DNA of 64,000 nucleotides, taken from NCBI GenBank assembly GCA_011032825.1, contig JAADJZ010000011.1, forward strand, positions 1,178,001 to 1,242,000, given 5' to 3'. Every line of letters starts with the position of its first letter. The stretch's first letter is position 1. Below, in pieces: positions 22,174 through 55,243 of this stretch. Below the pieces are notes generated by a model that saw only the letters and a list, made by a program, of their open reading frames with translations, had not been told where the DNA came from and made no database searches. The DNA is from Massariosphaeria phaeospora (lineage: Eukaryota; Ascomycota; Dothideomycetes; Pleosporales). The translations under genes were made by a program, and so were the position numbers.

Positions 22174-23988
22174 TCACAAAACCCCCACCGCAACCACAAT
22201 CCCCACCAGCACCGCCACCCCCTTATCCCCGCGCGCAGCGCCCGCCCTCGGCGCCATAGCATCTAACCGCGCATGCGCAAGCGAAGGCGTAGGCTCCGAC
22301 GTATACGCAAACGGATCATATTCGCTGGTAGTAGCGGTCGTCATTGTGGCGTTTGTGGACAGCGTCATTGTGGCGTTTAGGCCGGAGGAGAAGGTGGACA
22401 GCGTACTCGTGGTGGTGGTGGTGGTGTTGAGCGCGGACGCTGTGGACGACGTGGCGTTGCGGTAGGGAGGGAGGAGGGTGAGGGCGGATGACTGGGTGTT
22501 TAGTGTGAGTGAGGGGGAGGGGGACTGGAAGGCGGTGGATGCGGAGACGGCGGCGGCAGAGGAGGTGGAGGTGATGGTGTACGTAGCCACCACGTCGGCC
22601 GTCCGCGTACTAGCTCCAAGCTCAGGGGAGGGTGCCTGGATCGCAGTGGTGGTGCGGGAGGATGCCGCAGCAGAGGCCTTGACAGTGTACGACGTCGCTG
22701 CGTCAGCCAGTGTACGGGTTTCCGGCTTGGGGACGTGAGTTTGGGCCGCGGAGGTGAAGGGTGCGTTTGCAGGAGACGACGCGGCGGGTGCAGGCGGGGC
22801 GGGGGGAGCATTGATGGACGTAGGTGCCACAGCAGTGCTAGACGCCGCGCTCTTCGCTGGCACAGTGCGATCCGCCGTCTTTGTCGTCGTAGTCGTAGTC
22901 CTAGCAGTTGTTGTAGCCGTAGTCGTAGCTGTCGTGGTCGTTGTAGTCGACATTGTAGTCGAGGTCGTAGTCGGCGTCGTAGCCGTCGTAGTCGTCGTAG
23001 TCGTCGAAGCCGCACCCGTCTTGTCCTCCAGCAACGTGCGATGCCACTCGGAAGTCCGGCTCGACGCCGAAGAGGAAGCGGCGGGTATAGTTATGGTGGT
23101 AGTGGTGGTGCTGGTGCTGGGGGGGGAGAGGGGAGGAAGAGGGGAAGGTGGTGTAGGAGTACGTGTAGGTGTACTGGCGTTGGGGTTGGGTGTGGGTGCT
23201 GTGACCGAGCGGGAGCTGGGGGTAGACATGGAAATCGGGCTAGGGACCGAGGATGCCCTCGTGGTGGGATATGTCTTCTGCGGGGCGAGTGTATACCAGG
23301 TAGAAGTCGTAGCGGTAGACGGGACCTGCTCGCTGGACATGGTGCCATTGACCCAAGGAACAAGAGTCTGGGTTACAGACACCCTCGAGGTGGGATATGT
23401 CTTCTGCGGGGCAGTATCGAGTGTATACCATGTTGAAGGCGTAGCGGTAGACTGGACCTGCCCGCTGGACATGGTGCCGTTGACCCAAGGAGCAAGAGTC
23501 CGGGTTACAGACACCGTACCATTAGCCCTCATGCTCGTAGCATTCCCACTCGTCTCTACAGCCGTGTAACTCGTTATTGTCATTGTCGTCGTCGAATTAC
23601 TGAACGTCCCCCAAGCGAGCGTGGTATGCGGGTGAGGAGCATGAGTCCGGGTTGCAGACGCGGTAGTGTTGCCGGGTGTACATGTGCAGTTTCCACTCGT
23701 GCAGTTTGCACTTGGTCGCGTGGTGTTATGCATCGGAGGGCTCGTAGGCGCGGAAGCTTGAGACTGCGACGCTGTAGTCAAGTTATTGAACGGCCCCCAA
23801 GCGAGCGTGGTAAGTGGAGGAGCTGCGGTAGGGACTGCGGAAGCAGTAGCATTACCGCCTACGCTCGTGTAAGTCGTCGTCGTCGTCGTCGTCGAGTTGT
23901 TGAAAGGCATGCGGGTTGCAGACGCCGTACCATTGGTCCTCAAGCTCGTAGCATTTCCACTCGGCCGTGCGGTACTATGCCTTGTAGG
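22174..23988 (-). pseudogene. 3' half of a hAT-disrupted GPI-anchored Ser/Thr-rich protein gene
   Basis: This segment continues the reading frame of the 5' half at 27083-29931 once the hAT element (23989-27082) and one copy of the 8-bp target duplication are ignored. The frame is preserved exactly, and the joined residues match an intact internal repeat of the protein. It encodes ~600 residues rich in Thr, Ser, Ala and Asn-x-Thr sites, with long Thr runs. Two diverged copies of a ~45-residue unit (LxPWVNGTMSS through TYPT) lie at 23240-23500. The protein ends in a GPI-attachment signal: small residues near APRAGAARG, then hydrophobic VAVLVGIVVAVGVL and the stop at 22174. On its own this half has no signal peptide or start of its own, so a functional product from it is unlikely. 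Confidence 0.85.
23981..23988. repeat. hAT target-site duplication, left copy (cttgtagg)
   Basis: The 8-bp sequence cttgtagg directly abuts the left inverted repeat and is identical to 27083-27090 on the right. Eight base pairs is the characteristic duplication length of the hAT superfamily. Confidence 0.93.
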
Positions 23989-24150
23989 CAGACTTGTCAA
24001 CAATCCGTCCGGATTGACAGATTGATTGGACGGATTGATTAATAAGCAATCCGTCCAATCAATCCGAGACCTTGATTACTAGCAATCCATTCAATCCAGA
24101 GGTCCCAGATTGATTGGACGGATTGTTTACGGATTGATTGTTTTGCGTAC
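23989..24150. repeat. Left terminal inverted repeat and subterminal repeats of the hAT element
   Basis: The terminal 22 bp (23989-24010) are the inverted repeat. The next ~140 bp contain at least five copies, in both orientations, of ggattgattggacggattg-like or aatccgtccaatcaatcc-like motifs, for example near 24021, 24046, 24085 and 24109. The right end (about 26940-27082) has the same motif family. Confidence 0.85.
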
Positions 24151-24429
24151 AGAGGTCCTTCAAGATTCTAGGTGTTGATAGCTAGCGGAGGCGTAAAAAT
24201 ATAAAATATAATATACTCTCCAGTTCGAATCCTGTAAAATTACTTTCTCGCCCTCGCTCAACCGGCCGTATTAGGCCTAGCCGCCCCGGAAAATCGATTA
24301 CGCCGCCCCGAAATATCTCGCGACCCAAGATTTTCGACGCGCTGAGATTAACGCGCACTCACTACGTTCGCCCACACCCACGAAAGTACGTATGTTTATC
24401 GCGATTTTTCGCCCAAACTGACCTCGCAG

Positions 24430-26937
24430 ATGAATCAGCAGCTTAATGAAGTATTTGGGCGGGTCCTTGACTCCCAGTCCACGCAAAACGCCGCCGGCGC
24501 AGCCTCCTCGTACCAGGCAACCGATGCACAGTCAACATCTGACGCGCCACTCGATCTCGATCCTCTCGCTGTCTCTGCCTCCGCCGACGATGATGAGGAC
24601 TATGAAGGCCTTGTTTGGTCGCGCGTACCTAATTTACAGAAGCCTCAATACGCTGCTAAACGTGCCTTAACAAGCTGGGTTTTTCAATACGGCTGGCGCG
24701 TATACCATCGCAAGCATGAAGCGCTGTATTGGCTGTGCAAATACTGCCATATACACAAGCAAAACGGGCTGTTTAAAGTGGCAACTTCAACCTCTGCTAT
24801 CCATCGGCACCTCGAGGCGCGGCGACCTGGCCACGGAGTCGGCAAAGATGGCCCAATTCGGTTCAAGAAGGAGGCATCTATCATCTCCGCCCTACAGCGA
24901 CAGGGCGTTGATGTGAGTCAAGAGGTAGCAAACGCCGTCGCCGATACCTTTTCGGCGCCCGCTTTTCAGCAGGCGCTTATCGAGTGGGTGGCTGCTGATA
25001 ACCAAGCTCTGCGCGTTGTAGAGGTGCCTGCCTTTCGAGATATGATCAAGGCTGCTAATCCGCTCGCTGAGCGCGTTTTGTGGAGCAGCCACAACACTCT
25101 CCGGTCGCACATTATAGATGAATACAACGCCTACCTACCCGCCGTCGTGAGCTACATAAAGGCAGCCAAATCCGCTATACACGTATCCTTTGACAACTGG
25201 ACCTCATACGGCGGCAAACGCGCTATTACCGGAATCTGCGTACACCACTTGAACGCAGCGGGTCAACAAGTAGATTACTTCCTTGGCCTGCCGACGCTAT
25301 CGGGCGACCACTCTGGTTCAAATATCGCAGCAATCGTGAGCTCAACTCTCCACCGGTTTCATATACGAAAAGAAGCCCTAGGTTACTTTGTGCTTGATAA
25401 CGCGACAAACAACGATACTGCCGTCAACGAGCTAGCGGAGGAGTACGGCTTCAACCCGAGCCACCGGAGATTGCGCTGCAGCTGCCATATACTCAATCTC
25501 GCTGCCCAAAACGTTATCTTTGGCCAGGATCGCGACGCGTTTGAGAACTCGCAGGAGAATTTAGTAGTACGTATTGCCCTTTCCCTTCCTGCCGCCGTCT
25601 CTCGCGCAGCACCTGCTAACTCGCCCCAGGCAGAGGAACAGTACATGAACGAGTGGCGCAAAGCTGGCCCGCTAGGCGTACTGTTTGATGTCATCGCCTC
25701 AATCTGTACGCCGCAGGCGCGCGAGCTTTTGGAGGGATACCAGCGAGATGAGGCAACGTCGCTAAATCTCACGAACTTTACGCCAAGAGAACTCAAAAAG
25801 CCAGTCAAAACTCGCTAGAACTCTTACTACGATACGTTTGAGCGCGCCGTCGACCTCAGGGTGCCTCTGGACGATTATATGGGCTACAAAATCGGCGAGA
25901 GCAACCGCCCCGCAAACCGACAGCGATCTCGGGCGGGAGCTCGCCCTCCGGAGGCCAGCCAGCCACGCCTGTATATACGTGAGGGAGGGCTTACTGGCAA
26001 AGATTGGGCTACTATTACTGAGTATATCGAGTTGCTCAAGCCTTTCAAGGAGGCGACTAGCTGGCTCGAAGGTCGGGGCAAGGCTGGTCGCCACGGCGCG
26101 ATTTGGGAGGTTATCCCTACGTTTGAGTGGCTCCTCGCTACGCTACAGGCTCAACAGGATCGCGTAGAGGCAGTGGATTACAACGATCCTGACGCGCCTG
26201 AGGATCACGTCAAAACAAACCTCAATCTCGCTATTAGTAAGCTGGAAAAATACTACGCCAAATTCAAAGACGCCCCGGCGTATTACTGTGCCCTACGCCT
26301 CCACCCAGCGTACAAAAACTTTATCGATACTGCCTGGCGAGTACCCGCCGAATACGATGACGTAGATGGCCCCCATCCCCGCGAGGGGTGGCTAGAGGCA
26401 AACAACAAAGGCTTTCAATCACTTTGGGCGGGCGCTAAGCTAGCATCTAAAATCGCCGCCGCCGATTCAGCTACGCCGCCGCCTGCTAAGCGGCAACGTT
26501 TTGACTACGCCGTCAACCGTACTGAGTTTATGCTAGCCTCTATGAGAGAGGCGGAGATTGCGGAGGAGATTACTGACGAGTATGAGCTCTGGAGCGCGGA
26601 GAAACCAATTGATCCAGCTCACAAGCTTGCTCAGCTGCCAATTGCCTACTGGTTGTCAAAGGAGCATCAATACCCTGTTTTGGCGCGGTTTGCTATGAAT
26701 ATATTGAGTATCCCAGCCTCAGCAGCCGATTGTGAGAGGACTTTTAGTGAATTGGCTGATCTTTTAGGCGTACGGAGACTCAATATGAGGCCAGATTTAC
26801 TATCCGCTTTACAGAGCCTCCGATCCTGGAAACGCCTTGGGATTGAGCGCTTCAAAACGCCTTACAAACCTACGAACACGTACGATATCACTATCCATGA
26901 GATCGACGAATATATTGGGCAATTCACCAATAGTTAG
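24430..26937 (+). pseudogene. hAT transposase, interrupted by one in-frame TAG
   Basis: This is a single frame of 836 codons with one internal stop at 25816-25818 (codon 463). The first part (462 residues) carries a BED-type zinc finger: Cys103-x2-Cys106 with His125/127 in the WLCKYCHIHK...AIHRHLEARR region. It also has two RNase-H-like acidic blocks, VSFDNWTSYGGKRAITGIC and GYFVLDNATNND. The stop falls where hAT transposases have the Trp of their TRWNS motif, since the flanking residues are VKTR and NSYYD. After it the same frame runs on to the C-terminal hAT dimerisation domain (ILSIPASAADCERTFSELAD). TGG to TAG is a single G-to-A change, equal to CpA to TpA on the other strand, as RIP produces. 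No frameshift is present. Confidence 0.9.
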
Positions 26938-27060
26938 CTTACTAATCAATCCATCCAATCTATCAATCCGTCCACCCCCCAAATCCCTAAACAATCCATT
27001 CAATCCAATCCAGGAGAGATTTCTTGTCAATCCATTCAATCCGGGGACCCGGATTGGATT

Positions 27061-27090
27061 GGACGGATTGTTGACAAGTCTGCTTGTAGG
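27061..27090. repeat. Right hAT terminal inverted repeat (27061-27082) and right target duplication (27083-27090)
   Basis: 27061-27082 is the exact reverse complement of 23989-24010. The following cttgtagg (27083-27090) equals 23981-23988. Confidence 0.95.
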
Positions 27091-29931
27091 CTCAAATGTG
27101 TGCGAGTGCGACGCGGTAGTCCTGTTACCAAAAGGCCCCCAGATGGGCGTAGCATGTGGAGGAGCTGCGGTATGGACTGCAGAAGCAGTAGCATTACCGC
27201 CGAAGCTCGTAGCATTGCCGCTCGGTCGTCCCGCTCTGTAACTTGTCGTCGCGTATGTAGGCCAAGGAGTATAAGCAGGACTTGACGTAGTCGAATTCGT
27301 GACGGCAAATACAGATGCAGTGGCATTCTCCACTGCGCTCGTAGCATTGCCGCTCGGCCGCGCGGTACTATGCCTTGTCGGATTCGTGGGCTCAGATGCG
27401 TAGGAACGCGATGTTGTAGTGAAGTTACTGAACGGCGCCCCGGTGGGCGGAGAATGCGGACGGGGAGGAGTGAACGTGTGGACTGCAGGTGTTGTAGTCA
27501 AGTTCCTGAACGGCGCCCCGGTGGGCGGAGAATGCGGACGCGGAAGAGTGAAAGTCCAGACTGCAGTCGCAGTAGCATTCCCCGCCGCGCTTGTAGCATT
27601 GCCGTTCAAGGATCCTGTTTGCGCGGCAGACCCACTCGAAGTAGATGCGACAGATGCGGAAGAGGCGTTACTGTACGGCCCCGCTGTGGGCGGAGAATGC
27701 GGCCGGGGAGGAACAAATGTCCAGTCTACAGTCGCAGTAGCATTCCCTGCCGCGCTTGTACCACTACTGCTCGAGAATCCTGTGTGCGCGGCAGAGCCAC
27801 TTGAACTAGATGTAACAGATGCGGAAGATGCGTTACTATACGGCCCCGCGGTGGGCGAAGAATGCGGACGAGGAACAACGAAAGTCCAGACTTCAGTCGC
27901 AGTAGCAGTAGCATTATCCGCATTGCCGCTCGAGGATCCCGTTTTCTCCGCAGAAGAGCCACTCAAACTAGATGTGACAGATGCGGAAGATACATGTGAG
28001 CGCGACGCTGTAGTCAAGTTACCGAACGGCACCGCGGTAGGCGGAGAATGCGGCCGGGGAGGCACGAAAGTCCAGTCTACAGTCGCCGTAGCATTGCCGC
28101 TCGAGGATCCCGTTTGCGCGGCAGAAGAGCCAGAGCCACTCGAGCTAGATGCGACAGGTGCGGAGACAGTGTACGCCAAAGTCAACGGGGGGCTTGGTTC
28201 GCTCGTACGGACTGGTGTCCACGTAAGGATCGTATCGATTGATTCCGTACGGGTTGAATTCTTGGTGTGGATGGGGACCGTGGACGTGAGATTGCTGGAT
28301 GTCAAGACAGTAGTAGATGATTCCTCCGTCTGGATTGATTCCCCCGTATGCACAGGCACCGCAGACGTACCATTACTGGATATCGGGGCACTAGTACTCC
28401 GCGTGCTCGGGAACGTATGGTGTGGTTCCGGTAGCCCTGGGACCGTGGACGAGTCACTGCTAGGTGTCGGAACCGTGGATGTGCTGGTTAATGTCTTCGT
28501 GCGGATTGGTCTCCGCGTGTGGACGGGAACTGAGTGTGAGGAAGTGCTGGATGTCGGGAGAGTGGCGGTGTATGGCGATGCGGCGAGGGGAGATGTGAGC
28601 GAGTCAGGCGACGAGGACTCCACAGACTCCACAGACGGGCTGGTCGTGATATCATCGCTGCTCGGGCTGGGCGAAACCGTGCTGCTCGTCGAGCCTGTGC
28701 TGCTTGTTGAAACCCTTCTGCTCGTTGAACCCGTGCCGCTTGTTGAAACAGTGGTGCTCGAGGATGTGAACGCCGCAGACTGAATAGGAGTACCCTCGCC
28801 GCTTGCGCTTGTCAAAACCGTGCTGCTCAAGGACGAGGACTCCAAAGACTGAACAGGAGTGCTGGTCGTCGCCGCAGACTGAACAGGAGTGCCGGTCGCG
28901 ATATCATCGCTGCTTACGCTGCTCGAGAACGTGGACTCCACAGACGGAACAGACAGAACAGACAGGCTAGTCGCGGTGCCATCGCTGCTCGCGCTGGCCG
29001 AAACTGTGCTGCTTGAGGACGTAGACTCCACAGACAGGACAGACGGGACAGACAGGCTAGTCGTGGTGCCATCGCTGCTTGCGCTTGTGGAAACCGTGCT
29101 GCTTGAGGCCGTGGACGCCACAGGCTGAATAGAAGTGCCGGTCGTGGTTTCCTCAGTGCTTGCGCTGGTCGAAACGATGCTGCTCAAGGACGTGGACGCC
29201 ACAGACGGGACAGACAGGCCAGACGGGCTGGTCGTAATGCCATCGCTGCTCGCGCTGGTCGACACCGTGCTGCTCGAGGACATGGACATGGACGTGGACG
29301 TGGACGTAGACATCGCCGCAGCCATCACCGAAGACGCCTCCACAACCGAACTCACCACCAAAGACGCCTTCGTGCGCACCGTCTCCCCACCACTCATCTT
29401 CGCCGAAGAGCTCAAACCAACCACCTCATTAGTCACCGCCCCCAACTCCCCCACACTCTGCACCACCACCGCGCCAATAATACTCCTCTTGCGCACCCCC
29501 GTCCCAACCCTATACTTCAGATAGCAATGGCCTACCCCCTCCAGACCCTCGCGCTCTAGCGGCGCATCAAACGACACAGCCAGACAACCCGGCCGCGCCG
29601 TGCAGTGCGCCAGACACTGCGCCATGGTGGTGGCGGGCGTGGGGCTGAAGGCCGCGAAGTCGTTGCCGTAGTGGTCGGTGCCGCATTGCACGAGGTAGAC
29701 GGTGGGGCCGGAGCGCACGGCTTTTTGGTCGTAGGCGGGGCAGATTTCGCGGAAGTGTGGGCGGTGTTCGAAGGGGTGGGCGGTTGTGGTGACGGCGGCG
29801 GTGGTGTCTGGGGGTGGGTTGTTAGATGGGGGGATGGATGGGGGGGACGGGGTGGCTTGCTTACCGGTGGTGGATTGTGCGTAGATGAGGTTGGTCAGAA
29901 TAGCCAGGAGGGAAACACGGAGGAGCACCAT
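27083..29931 (-). pseudogene. 5' half of the hAT-disrupted secreted, PAN-like, mucin-type wall protein gene
   Basis: The start at 29931 gives a signal peptide (MVLLRVSLLAILTNLIYA). A possible 57-bp in-frame intron (29864-29808; GTAAGC donor, CTAAC branch, CAG acceptor) follows. Next comes a cysteine-containing PAN/apple-like module of ~100 residues (ICPAYDQ, VYLVQCGTDHYGNDF, MAQCLAHCTARPGCLAVSF, GHCYLKYRVG). Beyond it are ~780 residues dominated by Ser/Thr with Val/Pro, arranged in many diverged tandem units such as SSSTVSTSASSDGTTTS and VDWTFVPPRPHSPPTAGP. The organisation suggests a heavily O-glycosylated surface protein. Its GPI signal lies in the separated 3' half. In the present allele the frame continues 91 codons into the transposon and stops at 26809, so any product would be secreted but unanchored. 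The role (adhesion, shielding) is inference. Confidence 0.85.
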
Positions 29932-41929: not shown

Positions 41930-43639
41930 CTACATCCTCGCGCCGGGTGCCCCTTTGCACTTCGCTTCAAAGGTGCACCAGACCGCCTCCATATTATCGT
42001 TGTGCTTGCCATCGAGTTTCCAGTCCTCTCTGTCCATCATCGAAAACATATACGACGACTCCTTGCAGTCATTGTCCGCATAGAAACTGCAGCAACCTCC
42101 CCACGTCTCCACCGCAGTCACCTTGTTCTTCAAATTGTCCGGGATGGTTTGGCAGTCTTCGTACAGTAGGCGGCCAGGGCGGGGAATGCGGTCTGGATAC
42201 GTCGACGCCCAGTCCGTGGCTCCTCCGTTCTTTGTGACCTTATTATCTGTGTCCGCGCCGAGCCTCACTGTGATCTGCCGATCCTCGAATTCCTCCCCGG
42301 GGATCTTGAGAGCATTTCGTGGCGCGTTCCAATCGATCACGACACGGTAATCGTTGACGTCGATGGACCTAGGAGGGTCGGCTGGTTTGTGTCTGCCCCT
42401 AGCCTTCACAGCCAATGCCGGTGCGGCCGCCAGGCAGTCTAGAAACCGCTGGTCTTTGATCATTTTGCCCACTGTGCCGGACTTTTTGGCAGCCTCAAGA
42501 GACTTCGGAGGTGCTTTCGGCCGCGATCCTGCCCCCTTGAGCTCGGTATAGAACGCTTTTCTTGTCGAGGGAGGTGCCGCGCGGGGGGTGGCTTTTTTGA
42601 AGATTTGGAAGAGTTTGATGATCCCTTTGATTATCATGACGATGGGTGGACCGGCCATAGTCGTCTCTGATATCCCACCAACCGCAGTCTTCGGCTTGTA
42701 ACCTATAGTTACCATGTGGTCATCGAGAAATTCAGGGTCAGCGTCGTTCTCGGGCCACGTTTCCATCATGCCGTCCACTTCATCTGGAGACATGGCCGCG
42801 ACCTCTTTCAGGTCCCACGTGCCGATGCCTACCAGGAGCGCGAAACAAAAGCCATTGCGGCCGCGGCGGTTGTTCTCCTTCTGCTCCGCCTTCTTCGACT
42901 CGGTAGTCCGTTTCTTCTGCTCCTTTGCAGTCTCGACTCGCTTCTGGTAATTCTCCACCAGTTCTTTCTTAGTGTAGCGCGTAGTCCGGCAGCTATGCTT
43001 CATGACTTTATCGTCCTCGCCCCTAGTCTCGCTCTCCATGTGGTGGTACGTCCTCTTGTGATTCTTGCACCGGTAGTTGGGGTCTTCGTCTTTGGCACAC
43101 TCAGGGGTGTAGGTTTCGGCATCTTTGGGCTCCACTTTGTTTTTCGGCCTGCGCGTTACCGGTGTCCGGGACTTATCCTCGCACTTTTTGGAGTCGTCCA
43201 GCGTGCAAACCGGGTTTTCTGTATTCTCGTCCTGTCCGCCTTCAGCGGGATCGAGGATATACCCTTCGTCCTTGCACTTGCCGCGCTTCTTCTGATTGTC
43301 CGGGCCTTTATCGACGCAAACTGTGTTCCCGACGTTCGGCTTCGTGCCTTTAGGGCAGGTCTCACATTCACCTGCCTCGTTCGGGGCCATGTTCCCCATG
43401 CACTTATCTTCGACGCAAACTGTGTTCCCGACGTTCGGCTTCGTGCCTTTAGGGCAGGTCTCACATTCACCTGCCTCGTTCGGGGCCATGTTCCCCATGC
43501 ACTTATCTTCGACGCACACCTCTGGATCTACCTCGGTTTCCGGAAGTTCAAGATCTGTTTGCTCTTCTTCTTGCGGGGCGCCATTTACAAGGGCGAGGCA
43601 GGAGACTAGCAACAAGATCACGTATCTGTATGCCCGCAT
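41930..43639 (-). CDS. Secreted Cys-rich protein with exact 33-residue tandem repeats
   Basis: This is a single exon of 569 residues. A signal peptide (MRAYRYVILLLVSCLALVNG) is followed by an acidic segment. Two identical 33-residue units (DKCMGNMAPNEAGECE, then TCPKGTKPNVGNTVCV) follow, and a partial third begins CKDEGYILDP. Their Cys spacing resembles ephrin-receptor-like or EGF-like growth-factor-type modules. Residues ~130-270 are very Lys/Arg/Glu-rich (TPVTRRPKNKVEPKD, AKEQKKRTTESKKAEQKENN). Residues ~330-350 form a hydrophobic or amphipathic segment (MAGPPIVMIIKGIIKLFQIF) that could be a membrane-active or transmembrane helix. The C-terminal ~170 residues look globular with paired Cys (GGCCSFYADNDCKESSYMFS). 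I do not recognise the whole architecture. Surface or secreted role is inferred from the signal peptide. Confidence 0.75.
   Translation of the reverse strand: MRAYRYVILLLVSCLALVNGAPQEEEQTDLELPETEVDPEVCVEDKCMGNMAPNEAGECETCPKGTKPNVGNTVCVEDKCMGNMAPNEAGECETCPKGTKPNVGNTVCVDKGPDNQKKRGKCKDEGYILDPAEGGQDENTENPVCTLDDSKKCEDKSRTPVTRRPKNKVEPKDAETYTPECAKDEDPNYRCKNHKRTYHHMESETRGEDDKVMKHSCRTTRYTKKELVENYQKRVETAKEQKKRTTESKKAEQKENNRRGRNGFCFALLVGIGTWDLKEVAAMSPDEVDGMMETWPENDADPEFLDDHMVTIGYKPKTAVGGISETTMAGPPIVMIIKGIIKLFQIFKKATPRAAPPSTRKAFYTELKGAGSRPKAPPKSLEAAKKSGTVGKMIKDQRFLDCLAAAPALAVKARGRHKPADPPRSIDVNDYRVVIDWNAPRNALKIPGEEFEDRQITVRLGADTDNKVTKNGGATDWASTYPDRIPRPGRLLYEDCQTIPDNLKNKVTAVETWGGCCSFYADNDCKESSYMFSMMDREDWKLDGKHNDNMEAVWCTFEAKCKGAPGARM
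43312..43509 (-). repeat. Two exact 99-bp tandem copies inside the secreted protein gene
   Basis: 43312-43410 and 43411-43509 are identical by eye, and the first bases of a third, diverged copy follow. The unit is in frame (33 codons), so copy number can change without breaking the gene. No silent differences are visible between the two full copies, which points to a recent duplication or gene conversion. Confidence 0.88.
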
Positions 43640-52529: not shown

Positions 52530-54230
52530 TCACCACCACCCCGTAAACGCCAGAAAGCTATCCACAGCATCGACCCAATCCTGGCCATTCAGCGTGCCCG
52601 CCCTCCTCTTGCCCCACAGCCCGGCTACCAGCTTCTCCAGATGCACTCTGCCCTTCTCGCCGTTCTCACGCGAGCCATCGCACCGTACCAGCTCGACCTT
52701 GCCGCCCGCGTATTTCTCGCTCAGGTCAATCTTGAAGCTGGCGTCGCCGTCGGGCGGATGGTAGTCCTCGACCGCGCGCTGCGCTCCGGTGTTGGCACTG
52801 TGGCCGGCGAGCACGGGGAATATGACGATGGGGTGGTGTCGTGTGCGCGGCTTGAACAACGAGCCCCGCACGGATATGTGCACCAGGCGCAGCGACGCCG
52901 CGCCGGGGCCGAGCCGGATGATCCAGGCGTGGAAGGCTTCGTACATCATGCGGAACTCGAGCTTGATGACCCACGTGTTGTAGCTGTAGAATATGGCGAG
53001 GGCTTCGGCGCGGACGAGGGGCGAGACGGACGCGAGCGGGTGCTGCAGGTTGTTGGCGAAGGTGGAGAGGCAGTAGATGAGCGGGGTCGGGCGCACGAGG
53101 TCGGGGAGGTAACGGTAGATCTGGTGGCGGATTTCGGGGGGCAGGGTGAGGAAGGTCGGGGGAGCGTCGGGGCTGGCGGTTGTAGATGCGGGTTGGGAGA
53201 GGGCGAGGGCTTCCATGCTTGTTGCTGGGGTTGGCCGGTCCCGGGAGAACAGCGACAGGCGCGAGGCGCTCATTTCGTCGGAGACGCTGGTATGCGGCGA
53301 GCTCGGCGAGAAGGGAGTCGAGTCGTCTTCGCTGGACGACAGGGCCCAATCGCTCTCCTCGGGGAAACGGCCGATCACGTCCCTATCGTCGTCGTCGATG
53401 TACATGTCGCTCTCCTCGCGGAACGGATGACGGCCGATCACGTCCAAATCGTCGTCGTCGAGGTACATCTCATCGTCCTCGCCATGCTGCTCGAGGCCCA
53501 AACGGGCAATCTTTGGGGGATCGCTTTTCTCAGGGAACGGATGACGACCGCTCACGTCCAAATCGTCGTCGTCGAGGTACATCTCATCGTCCTCGCCATG
53601 CTGCTCGAGGCCCAAACGGGCAATCTTGGGGGAATCGCTCTTCTCGGGGAACGGATAGCGGCCAATCAGGTCCATATCGTCGTCGTCGAGGTCATGCTGC
53701 TCGAAGCCCAAACGAGCGATCTTGAGGGAATCGCTCTCCTCGGGGAAACGGCCGATGATGTCCATATCGTCGTCGTCGAGGTCATGCTGCTCGAAGCCTA
53801 AACGGGCGATCTTGGAGGAATCGCTCTCCTCGGGGAACCGGCCGATGATGTCCCTATCGTCGTCGTCAATGTAGATATCATCCTCCTCGTCATGCTGCTC
53901 GAGGCCCAAGCGGGCGATCTTGGGGGGCAGCTCGAGCGAGGACGGCGTGCTGGGCGAGGGCAGCGCCGTGGCGGACCGCTTCGACGACGTGCGGCCTGCC
54001 GTGTGGTGGTGCGCCATTGTGCGCCCGCGCTCCGCTCCGCTCGTGCCTGCCGCTGTCGGGATCGAGGTTGTGGTGGGTGCCGGGCACGCCTGGCCAGCCT
54101 CGCCGCCGCAGAGCCCGCAGCTGGTCGTCGCCACGCTGGTGTCGAGCGCCTGCGGCTTGGGCGACCTCATGCCGCCGCCATGGTCCGGCGGCGTCTGGCC
54201 CGTGACCGAGTATCGTCGTTGCAGAGGCAT
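52530..54230 (-). CDS. F-box-like protein with acidic tandem repeats
   Basis: This is a single exon of 566 residues from the ATG at 54230 (MPLQRRYSVTGQTPPDHGGG). The frame is open further upstream to 54689, but that part is Pro/Ser-rich without a convincing start. Residues ~95-300 are a tandem array of about six ~30-38-residue units, each with KIARLGLEQH or KIARLGFEQH, an Asp/Glu run such as DDDDMDIIGR, and FPEESD or FPEKSD. After a Ser/Pro linker comes an F-box-like region (FLTLPPEIRHQIYRYLPDLV) and a fold typical of that fungal family (IFYSYNTWVIKLEFRMMYEA, LRLVHISVRGSLF). The tail ends DAVDSFLAFTGWW. It groups with the gene at 19245 and the pseudogene at 40559. The acidic array is not part of the usual family; it might bind basic partners, but that is speculation. 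Confidence 0.75.
   Translation of the reverse strand: MPLQRRYSVTGQTPPDHGGGMRSPKPQALDTSVATTSCGLCGGEAGQACPAPTTTSIPTAAGTSGAERGRTMAHHHTAGRTSSKRSATALPSPSTPSSLELPPKIARLGLEQHDEEDDIYIDDDDRDIIGRFPEESDSSKIARLGFEQHDLDDDDMDIIGRFPEESDSLKIARLGFEQHDLDDDDMDLIGRYPFPEKSDSPKIARLGLEQHGEDDEMYLDDDDLDVSGRHPFPEKSDPPKIARLGLEQHGEDDEMYLDDDDLDVIGRHPFREESDMYIDDDDRDVIGRFPEESDWALSSSEDDSTPFSPSSPHTSVSDEMSASRLSLFSRDRPTPATSMEALALSQPASTTASPDAPPTFLTLPPEIRHQIYRYLPDLVRPTPLIYCLSTFANNLQHPLASVSPLVRAEALAIFYSYNTWVIKLEFRMMYEAFHAWIIRLGPGAASLRLVHISVRGSLFKPRTRHHPIVIFPVLAGHSANTGAQRAVEDYHPPDGDASFKIDLSEKYAGGKVELVRCDGSRENGEKGRVHLEKLVAGLWGKRRAGTLNGQDWVDAVDSFLAFTGWW
53345..53930 (-). repeat. Tandem coding repeats in the F-box-like gene
   Basis: About six in-frame units of roughly 84-114 bp alternate between long and short forms. 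Two adjacent units (about 53440-53640) are nearly identical over 100 bp (cgaggtacatctcatcgtcc through ggcccaaacgggcaatct). This pattern fits unequal crossing-over with ongoing copy-number change. Confidence 0.85.
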
Positions 54231-55243
54231 GCTGGGCGGGAGGAGAGAGTGAGGACGCGGCGGTGGTGGGGACGTGGAGTCTGCAGTGTCGGGCCAGAGA
54301 TTGCGAGGGCGAGGGGATGTGCTGGCAGTGGTGAAGGCGCCGGGCACCAAGGTCGAAGGTCGAGACGAGAAGAAGGCCGGACGCGTCAGGCCGTTGCGGG
54401 GTTGCGATTGGCGGGGTTGGCCGGTGTGCAGGCGAGGCTGAGACGGAGGGAGAATATGCAGATGTACGATAGGTAGGTAGACAGAGAGCGCGGCCGTGGA
54501 AGGGAGAGTAGGTAGGTAGGCAGCCTGCGACGAGGTAGAAAAGCGACGGGTTGCGTGAGAAAAAAAGGAGGCTCGCAGACGTCGAGAAGCTGTTTCACCT
54601 GGGCGGTGCGCAGCGGAAACCGTCACCGCAATTAAATATTGCAGCGGTGCTGTGGGGGGCTGGGTCCGGGCGCCCTGGGCCACACGCAACTCGCCGGGAG
54701 AAAATCATTGTGTCACCTTCACTCACCTTGTTCGTCTTTCCGCAGTCAGGTTTGCTGGAAAGCTGTGTGGGTTTGCCAACTTTGCTTGCCCAGCGGCTAT
54801 CGACGCCCGCAGGTGCAGGAGCAGGTGCAGGAGCAGGTGCAGGTGCAGGCGACCGGAGAGTCAAGCGGCCCTGGTGTCGCATCTTTCCCTAGCCGGCACG
54901 CCTTGCCGATCCTGGACCCCTGCTGTCCAGGATAGAGAGACAACATCACTTGCAACTTCTTCATGCAAGACTGCTGGCTATCGATGGACACCCATCTCGC
55001 CTCAATTGCGCTATAGAAATATGTTCCGAATCTGTAAAACGAGTGTGCAAGGAAACAAACACAACCCCAGCATTGCCCCCTCTCTGTTGAAGAGATGCGC
55101 CCAACGCCCTACCCTCTCCAGGCCATCTCAGACATTTACCACCGTGGCTCATCTCATACGAAGAGCTGGTTCCGTGTTGAAGTGGCGCTCCTCGATGGGG
55201 GCCTCGACTCATCCCACCCACAATGCCTGCCCCAGACTTCTAC
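54231..55243. other. Intergenic with short tandem repeat
   Basis: About 1.0 kb lies between the F-box-like gene and the GNAT gene. It contains a 12-bp-type repeat aggtgcaggagc (54811-54849, about three copies). The open extension of the F-box-like frame (to 54689) covers part of it. No other gene is supported. Confidence 0.5.

Follow-up and report, generated by a model that had tools for sequence, protein, structure and literature searches.

How does a transposable element that seems unable to make its own transposase come to split a gene of the saprobic ascomycete Massariosphaeria phaeospora (Pleosporales)? The question is raised by a stretch of 64,000 nt (hereafter the window) covering positions 1,178,001 to 1,242,000 of contig JAADJZ010000011.1 (assembly GCA_011032825.1), which is part of contig C3 in our genome numbering. 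Here, a 3,094-bp hAT element (positions 23989 to 27082 of the window, plus strand) lies antisense within a gene for a putative long surface protein (positions 22174 to 29931, minus strand). We consider it probable (roughly 0.88) that a recent hAT insertion split this gene, that the inserted, stop-bearing copy was mobilised by transposase made elsewhere in the genome, and that a second group of copies, damaged by what looks like repeat-induced point mutation (RIP), multiplied in the same way. All counts are based on the genome of a single isolate, and the copy numbers, obtained by searching this genome with the left and right ends of the element, are lower bounds.

A putative surface-protein gene and its hAT insertion

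The element ends in 22-bp terminal inverted repeats (23989 to 24010, plus strand, and 27061 to 27082, minus strand), which pair at 22 of 22 bases in an end-to-end comparison and lose their identity directly thereafter. It is flanked by two plus-strand copies of the target site duplication cttgtagg (23981 to 23988 and 27083 to 27090). These ends and flanks agree with the initial annotation, which had been made from the letters of the window. Its assignment of the element to the hAT class is also upheld, by the 8-bp duplication and the 22-bp inverted ends, by a hAT dimerisation domain (PF05699), by the resemblance of the open copy's product to the Hermes transposase, and by the presence of 19 more full-length copies genome-wide. 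The element and one copy of the duplication together comprise 3,102 bp (3 x 1,034). As predicted, subtracting them keeps the frame, and the start codon (29931 to 29929) and the stop codon (22176 to 22174) of the gene are in one phase.

The upstream half of the gene (27083 to 29931, minus strand) encodes the start codon, a hydrophobic N-terminus, a PAN module and Ser/Thr-rich repeats in 949 codons without an internal stop (29931 to 27085). The downstream half (22174 to 23988, minus strand) holds more repeats and a C-terminal hydrophobic tail in 604 codons plus the stop, again without interruption (23988 to 22177); 602 of these codons are native when its own copy of the duplication is left out. 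When the bases of each piece were shuffled 200 times, no open stretch exceeded 331 (upstream) or 287 (downstream) codons. The implied uninterrupted product has 949 + 602 = 1,551 residues, matching the approximately 1,550 residues of the earlier reconstruction, and the gene is apparently single-exon.

The two halves also share an internal repeat. This can be seen without joining the pieces because the target duplication reads Pro-Thr in the phase of the gene in both of its copies. The downstream piece starts with PTRHSTARPSGNATS, and the identical 15 residues are present in the upstream piece, so the junction residues do recur in another repeat copy of the protein, as had been claimed. In the downstream piece, the BLASTP match between the halves (E = 2e-15) starts precisely where the element was inserted. 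In a DNA comparison, the left flank of the element matches positions 27337 to 27381 at 41 of 45 bases (score 70, compared with at most 25 in 200 shuffles), and the right flank matches positions 27386 to 27488 (score 46; the maximum in 200 shuffles, with a shorter query and against the upstream half only, was 35), continuing the match of the left flank. The right flank additionally matches positions 23741 to 23838 in the downstream half (score 76). Since the two flanks match consecutive stretches, an adjacent repeat unit of this gene (27337 to 27488, minus strand) contains a near-equivalent of the target sequence, which is uninterrupted but 9 bp longer at the site. The shared frame, the repeat family on both sides and this counterpart support the view that one gene has been split in two.

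The composition of the product makes a secreted, GPI-anchored, mucin-like protein a plausible and fair reading. Serine and threonine account for 38% of the upstream half and 40% of the downstream half, each of which has 19 N-glycosylation sequons, so the proposed Ser/Thr repeats are confirmed. The PAN module (residues 85 to 139; 29515 to 29679, minus strand) is barely above the threshold, scoring 27.3 bits with PF14295 where the cut-off is 27. The signal peptide and the GPI signal of the initial annotation are putative, both having been judged by hydropathy: the two most hydrophobic 16-residue stretches lie at the two ends of the product, and the C-terminal one is the highest of all. The probable anchor signal (22177 to 22254, minus strand) consists of small residues followed by a hydrophobic stretch of about 16 residues.

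A search for relatives of residues 1 to 210 in the upstream half returned none at E <= 0.001 among 2,353 candidates from 5.8 billion proteins. This is weak evidence and says little about orphan status, because the same search also omitted the window's own product. The protein collection does hold another protein of this genome (P0121), yet the product of the split gene was not listed; the published annotation may therefore lack the gene or hold its product at a length outside approximately 522 to 1,660 residues. A 454-codon antisense open reading frame (ORF; 27419 to 28783) runs opposite the Ser/Thr-rich region of the gene and probably arises from codon bias.

If translation begins at its own start, the interrupted gene is predicted to encode at most the 949 native codons followed by 91 element codons (26809 to 27082, minus strand; the ORF from 26809 to 29931 has 1,040 codons), with a stop at 26809. 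Neither the repeats of the downstream half nor the putative anchor signal would be part of this product. With the anchor signal lost, a surface-bound protein would turn into a shortened, released one, or would be absent altogether.

The transposase and its premature stop

The transposase of the element is predicted to be encoded in two exons on the plus strand (24430 to 25566 and 25630 to 26937), the first of which is an open frame. The 63-bp intron between them (25567 to 25629; GTACGT ... CTAAC ... CAG) was predicted from splice signals by eye. Its length is a multiple of three, and it corresponds to about 21 residues that are absent from six aligned relatives (one relative has three fewer gap columns). 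These six proteins align with the product of the only full-length copy that has an open frame (L015) at 41 to 58% identity. In the transposase protein search, for which the best 120 of 196 matches were considered, the closest protein among those listed (a JGI record) is 56% identical. The hAT dimerisation domain (PF05699; E = 1.4e-13; 50.8 bits, cut-off 21.4) is encoded by exon 2. In the window copy, an in-frame stop (25816 to 25818) interrupts this exon upstream of the domain.

Three acidic residues (Asp255, Asp323 and Glu769) are invariant across the seven aligned proteins, and all of them lie within the frame of the open copy. The product of the open copy matches the Hermes transposase of the house fly (E = 2.4e-8), although the match reaches significance only in its C-terminal stretch. 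Glu769 pairs with residue 572 in the Hermes chain of 612 residues, a residue that we take to be the catalytic glutamate. The frame of the window copy ends at codon 463, before this glutamate, and thus lacks an uninterrupted Asp-Asp-Glu set. For this reason, we regard the window element as a defective, nonautonomous hAT element. In codons 1 to 462, where an N-terminal BED-type zinc finger would lie, Pfam gave no match; Cys103, Cys106, His107 and His127 in this region are invariant across the seven aligned proteins. No cargo gene was seen in the element. Repeats of CAATCCGTCC / GGACGGATTG type occupy a subterminal position (24001 to 24146, plus strand), with similar ones at 26946 to 27072, and may serve as transposase binding sites.

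A second, related hAT subfamily is present on contigs C1, C3, C12, C13, C15, C34 and C37, with protein identities of 61 to 74%. Its matches break near residue 385, the site of the intron in the window element, and every one of the matches listed contains stops.

Probable spread of defective copies in the genome

The genome contains at least 20 full-length copies of the element, including that of the window (the others are L010 to L028). The 22-bp inverted ends are exact at both ends in all 20, and all 20 are flanked by perfect 8-bp duplications that differ from one another. Further sequences (L029 to L039) are older, deleted, interrupted or partial, some of them representing one copy twice, and were not included in this number. 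The transposase frame is broken in 19 of the 20 full-length copies. Among the 19 without a frame shift, 18 carry the stop at 25816 to 25818 and only L015 is open; in the twentieth copy (L013), which also has the stop, one extra base shifts the frame. Genome-wide, 54 of 177 candidate transposase matches were scored, and the only one without a stop was again L015.

The full-length copies fall into two groups of ten. In group A, eight copies including the window's are identical over 3,094 bp, whereas L013 has its extra base and L015 has three substitutions. One premature stop is common to the eight identical copies, which occupy eight sites on seven contigs; this is most simply explained if the stop predates their movement. 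The absence of differences among them and the open frames flanking the insertion point to a young event. The initial annotation had called the insertion young, a view that the seven other identical copies support, but it missed the broken transposase frame and the family of at least 20 copies. Group B copies differ from the window copy at 83 to 88 positions and from each other at 0 to 11, and the group is probably somewhat older. Compared with L015, all ten share 84 differences and 12 internal stops. Twelve stops common to ten separately inserted copies suggest that damaged copies multiplied, presumably by means of transposase from elsewhere.

We evaluated the 84 shared changes for signs of RIP, setting their direction relative to L015, which is not a proven ancestor. 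Sixty-six are C:G to T:A and 16 are T:A to C:G. Half of the former (33 of 66) occur in the CpA context, where 22% would be expected (P = 5e-7). The excess of C-to-T changes and the CpA bias form a signature like that of RIP. In the genome, PF00145 gave four matches at three places, which may belong to a RID-type or to another type of DNA methyltransferase. Independent RIP is not expected to yield identical patterns, as two older copies on contig C1 (L031 and L032) differ from each other at 135 positions. These two share a 50-bp subterminal deletion, contain many stops and sit at different sites, each with a perfect 8-bp duplication; they are a further defective variant that moved, after which its copies were apparently hit independently.

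As its ends, the 8-bp duplication and the frame show, a cut-and-paste hAT element inserted antisense in the coding sequence of the putative surface-protein gene. We propose that this copy was most likely unable to make an intact transposase when moving, given the same stop in seven identical copies at other sites. The transposase that mobilised it most likely came from another place in the genome, where the frame of L015 is open. Group B would have multiplied after its founder had gained a dozen stops with a RIP-like signature.

The strongest rival of this proposal, although we judge it unlikely, is that intact copies inserted first and gene conversion then spread the stop to eight of them, which would not have been dead when moving. 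The sole open copy, L015, departs from the eight at only three positions, all within 47 bp, and at each of these the eight match group B, a tract-like pattern. Yet eight copies on seven contigs would each need to have received the same tract and nothing else, and the 84 shared changes of group B span the whole element. It is very unlikely that the stop is tolerated, through read-through or an unrecognised intron, and that group A is autonomous. Eight of the ten group A copies do have a single stop in an otherwise open frame (L013 has the stop and an extra base, and L015 is open), but the site is conserved in the six aligned relatives without a gap that would hint at an intron, and group B multiplied too, despite its 12 shared stops.

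Two further alternatives concern the gene. Splicing of the element from the transcript like an intron, with the protein still made, would fit with the length of the element and duplication being a multiple of three, and plant hAT elements can be spliced out; fungal introns are short, however, the one predicted here having 63 bp, and we give this possibility little credence. The least probable of the alternatives is that the element lies between two separate neighbouring genes. The downstream frame has internal ATG codons that could serve such a gene. Against this stand the common phase, the same repeat on both sides and the insertion within a repeat unit that is found uninterrupted elsewhere in the gene. 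Furthermore, the downstream half has no hydrophobic leader, and the N-terminal 197 residues are matched just once in their own genome, the upstream module having no other match there.

Several observations weigh against our proposal that stop-bearing copies were mobilised in trans after damage. The three clustered differences of L015, at which the eight identical copies match group B, suggest gene conversion between copies at least once, and conversion could spread a stop after insertion; the older copies, mutated themselves, disagree on the ancestral state at these positions and on the direction of conversion. The 16 reverse changes mean that group A has changed too. Reading through one stop may be feasible in group A, but is implausible for group B with its twelve. 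Assembly polishing could partly homogenise identical copies, yet group B keeps its private differences. As for the gene, both the insertion and the predicted loss of function are read from the genome sequence of one isolate, the putative anchor signal and signal peptide come from hydropathy, and the PAN match barely exceeds its cut-off.

Two candidate patterns were rejected. A preference of the element for genes is not apparent: both 300-bp flanks were open in a matching frame in 7 of 20 copies, compared with 406 of 1,188 control positions in the window (34%). The ends of group B seemed to be spared from change (0 of 266 terminal versus 84 of 2,828 other positions; P = 0.0011), but these limits were set post hoc; with fixed 100-bp ends, 1 of 200 terminal and 83 of 2,894 other positions had changed (P = 0.041). 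We compared six older copies without a known burst. With fixed 100-bp ends, fewer changes at the ends were found in L037 (P = 0.0017) and L033 (P = 0.039), and no sparing was found in L031 (P = 0.18), L032 (P = 0.59), L038 (P = 0.66) and L034 (P = 0.7); with the post hoc limits, L031, L037 and L038 showed fewer end changes too. As some older copies show sparing likewise, it is not special to the multiplied copies.

Older hAT copies are themselves interrupted by 2.1-kb elements of a different family (L034:483-2593, L037:1078-3197 and L038:838-2949). The latter have inverted ends of 49 to 60 bp (92 to 96% matched) and are 67 to 86% alike over part of their length.

Other features of the window concern neither the split gene nor its insertion. 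A 99-bp tandem duplication at 43311 to 43516 (2.1 copies; 100% identity), in frame in a Cys-containing ORF (41930 to 43639, minus strand), is a recent internal duplication. At 53407 to 53867, tandem repeats with periods of 90 and 114 bp (88 to 90% matches) lie in frame in the ORF from 52530 to 54689 and encode acidic, Asp-rich units. In the 64-kb window, no tRNA genes were found, and Rfam gave no match at the gathering score.

Comparison with known elements and implications

The transposase is of the same type as the Dimer-Tnp-hAT proteins of Pyrenophora tritici-repentis and P. teres, the best of which, among the best 120 of 196 matches, are 47 to 51% identical over 79 to 93% of the length; the other Pyrenophora matches are lower. 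Near-identical hAT copies have been reported in Pyrenophora (PMC3538342), and the available part of that paper describes elements that carry a histone H3-like gene, a long form whose transposase gene is full-length, and little RIP. In comparison with what that part describes, no cargo gene was seen in the Massariosphaeria element, and 19 of its 20 full-length copies are broken. The hAT elements of Pseudocercospora fijiensis with histone H3 copies have 8-bp duplications, 20-bp ends and CpA-biased RIP, which inactivated the captured histones (PMC6710886, as far as its available text goes). There, RIP is said to inactivate copies already amplified, whereas in Massariosphaeria, a damaged founder was apparently amplified afterwards. 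The resemblance to Hermes (PDB 6dww and 8edg) is distant and significant only C-terminally, where the conserved glutamate and the surrounding region align; the two conserved aspartate positions are paired in an N-terminal stretch of weak similarity (i-Evalue, 0.46), and the window copy stops before the glutamate and the dimerisation domain.

For a Tc1-mariner element of Sclerotinia sclerotiorum, the authors described copies with truncated frames and preserved ends as mobilisable in trans by an intact copy (PMC4188875). This element is from a different superfamily, and according to the accessible part of the paper, it bore no RIP signature. Two other sources (PMC3441728 and PMC4522978) report hAT copies that have degenerated in Verticillium and, in Zymoseptoria tritici, RIP-mutated elements containing stops; the order of damage followed by amplification does not appear in their available portions. 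In the accessible parts of the literature on defective or RIP-damaged fungal DNA elements that were multiplied or mobilised in trans, we found no such statement for RIP-damaged copies, and among the open-access papers naming M. phaeospora, no title concerns its transposons.

The interruption of a gene by a transposon is ordinary and known. The multiplication of a founder with RIP-like damage is more interesting, but follows from known principles. As a more far-reaching and tentative scenario, to which we would assign slightly less than even odds, a RIP-disabled copy parasitised an intact copy and reached at least ten sites, a lightly damaged copy later did likewise, and one of the descendants of the latter broke the surface-protein gene. 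The 20 insertions with intact duplications, the two groups with shared stops and the single open copy allow the mobilisation of RIP-damaged elements in trans to be addressed directly, and the interrupted gene provides a clean presence/absence marker for M. phaeospora isolates. If the scenario is true, RIP would not only kill elements but also seed nonautonomous families, and genome defence would not be the end of the element.

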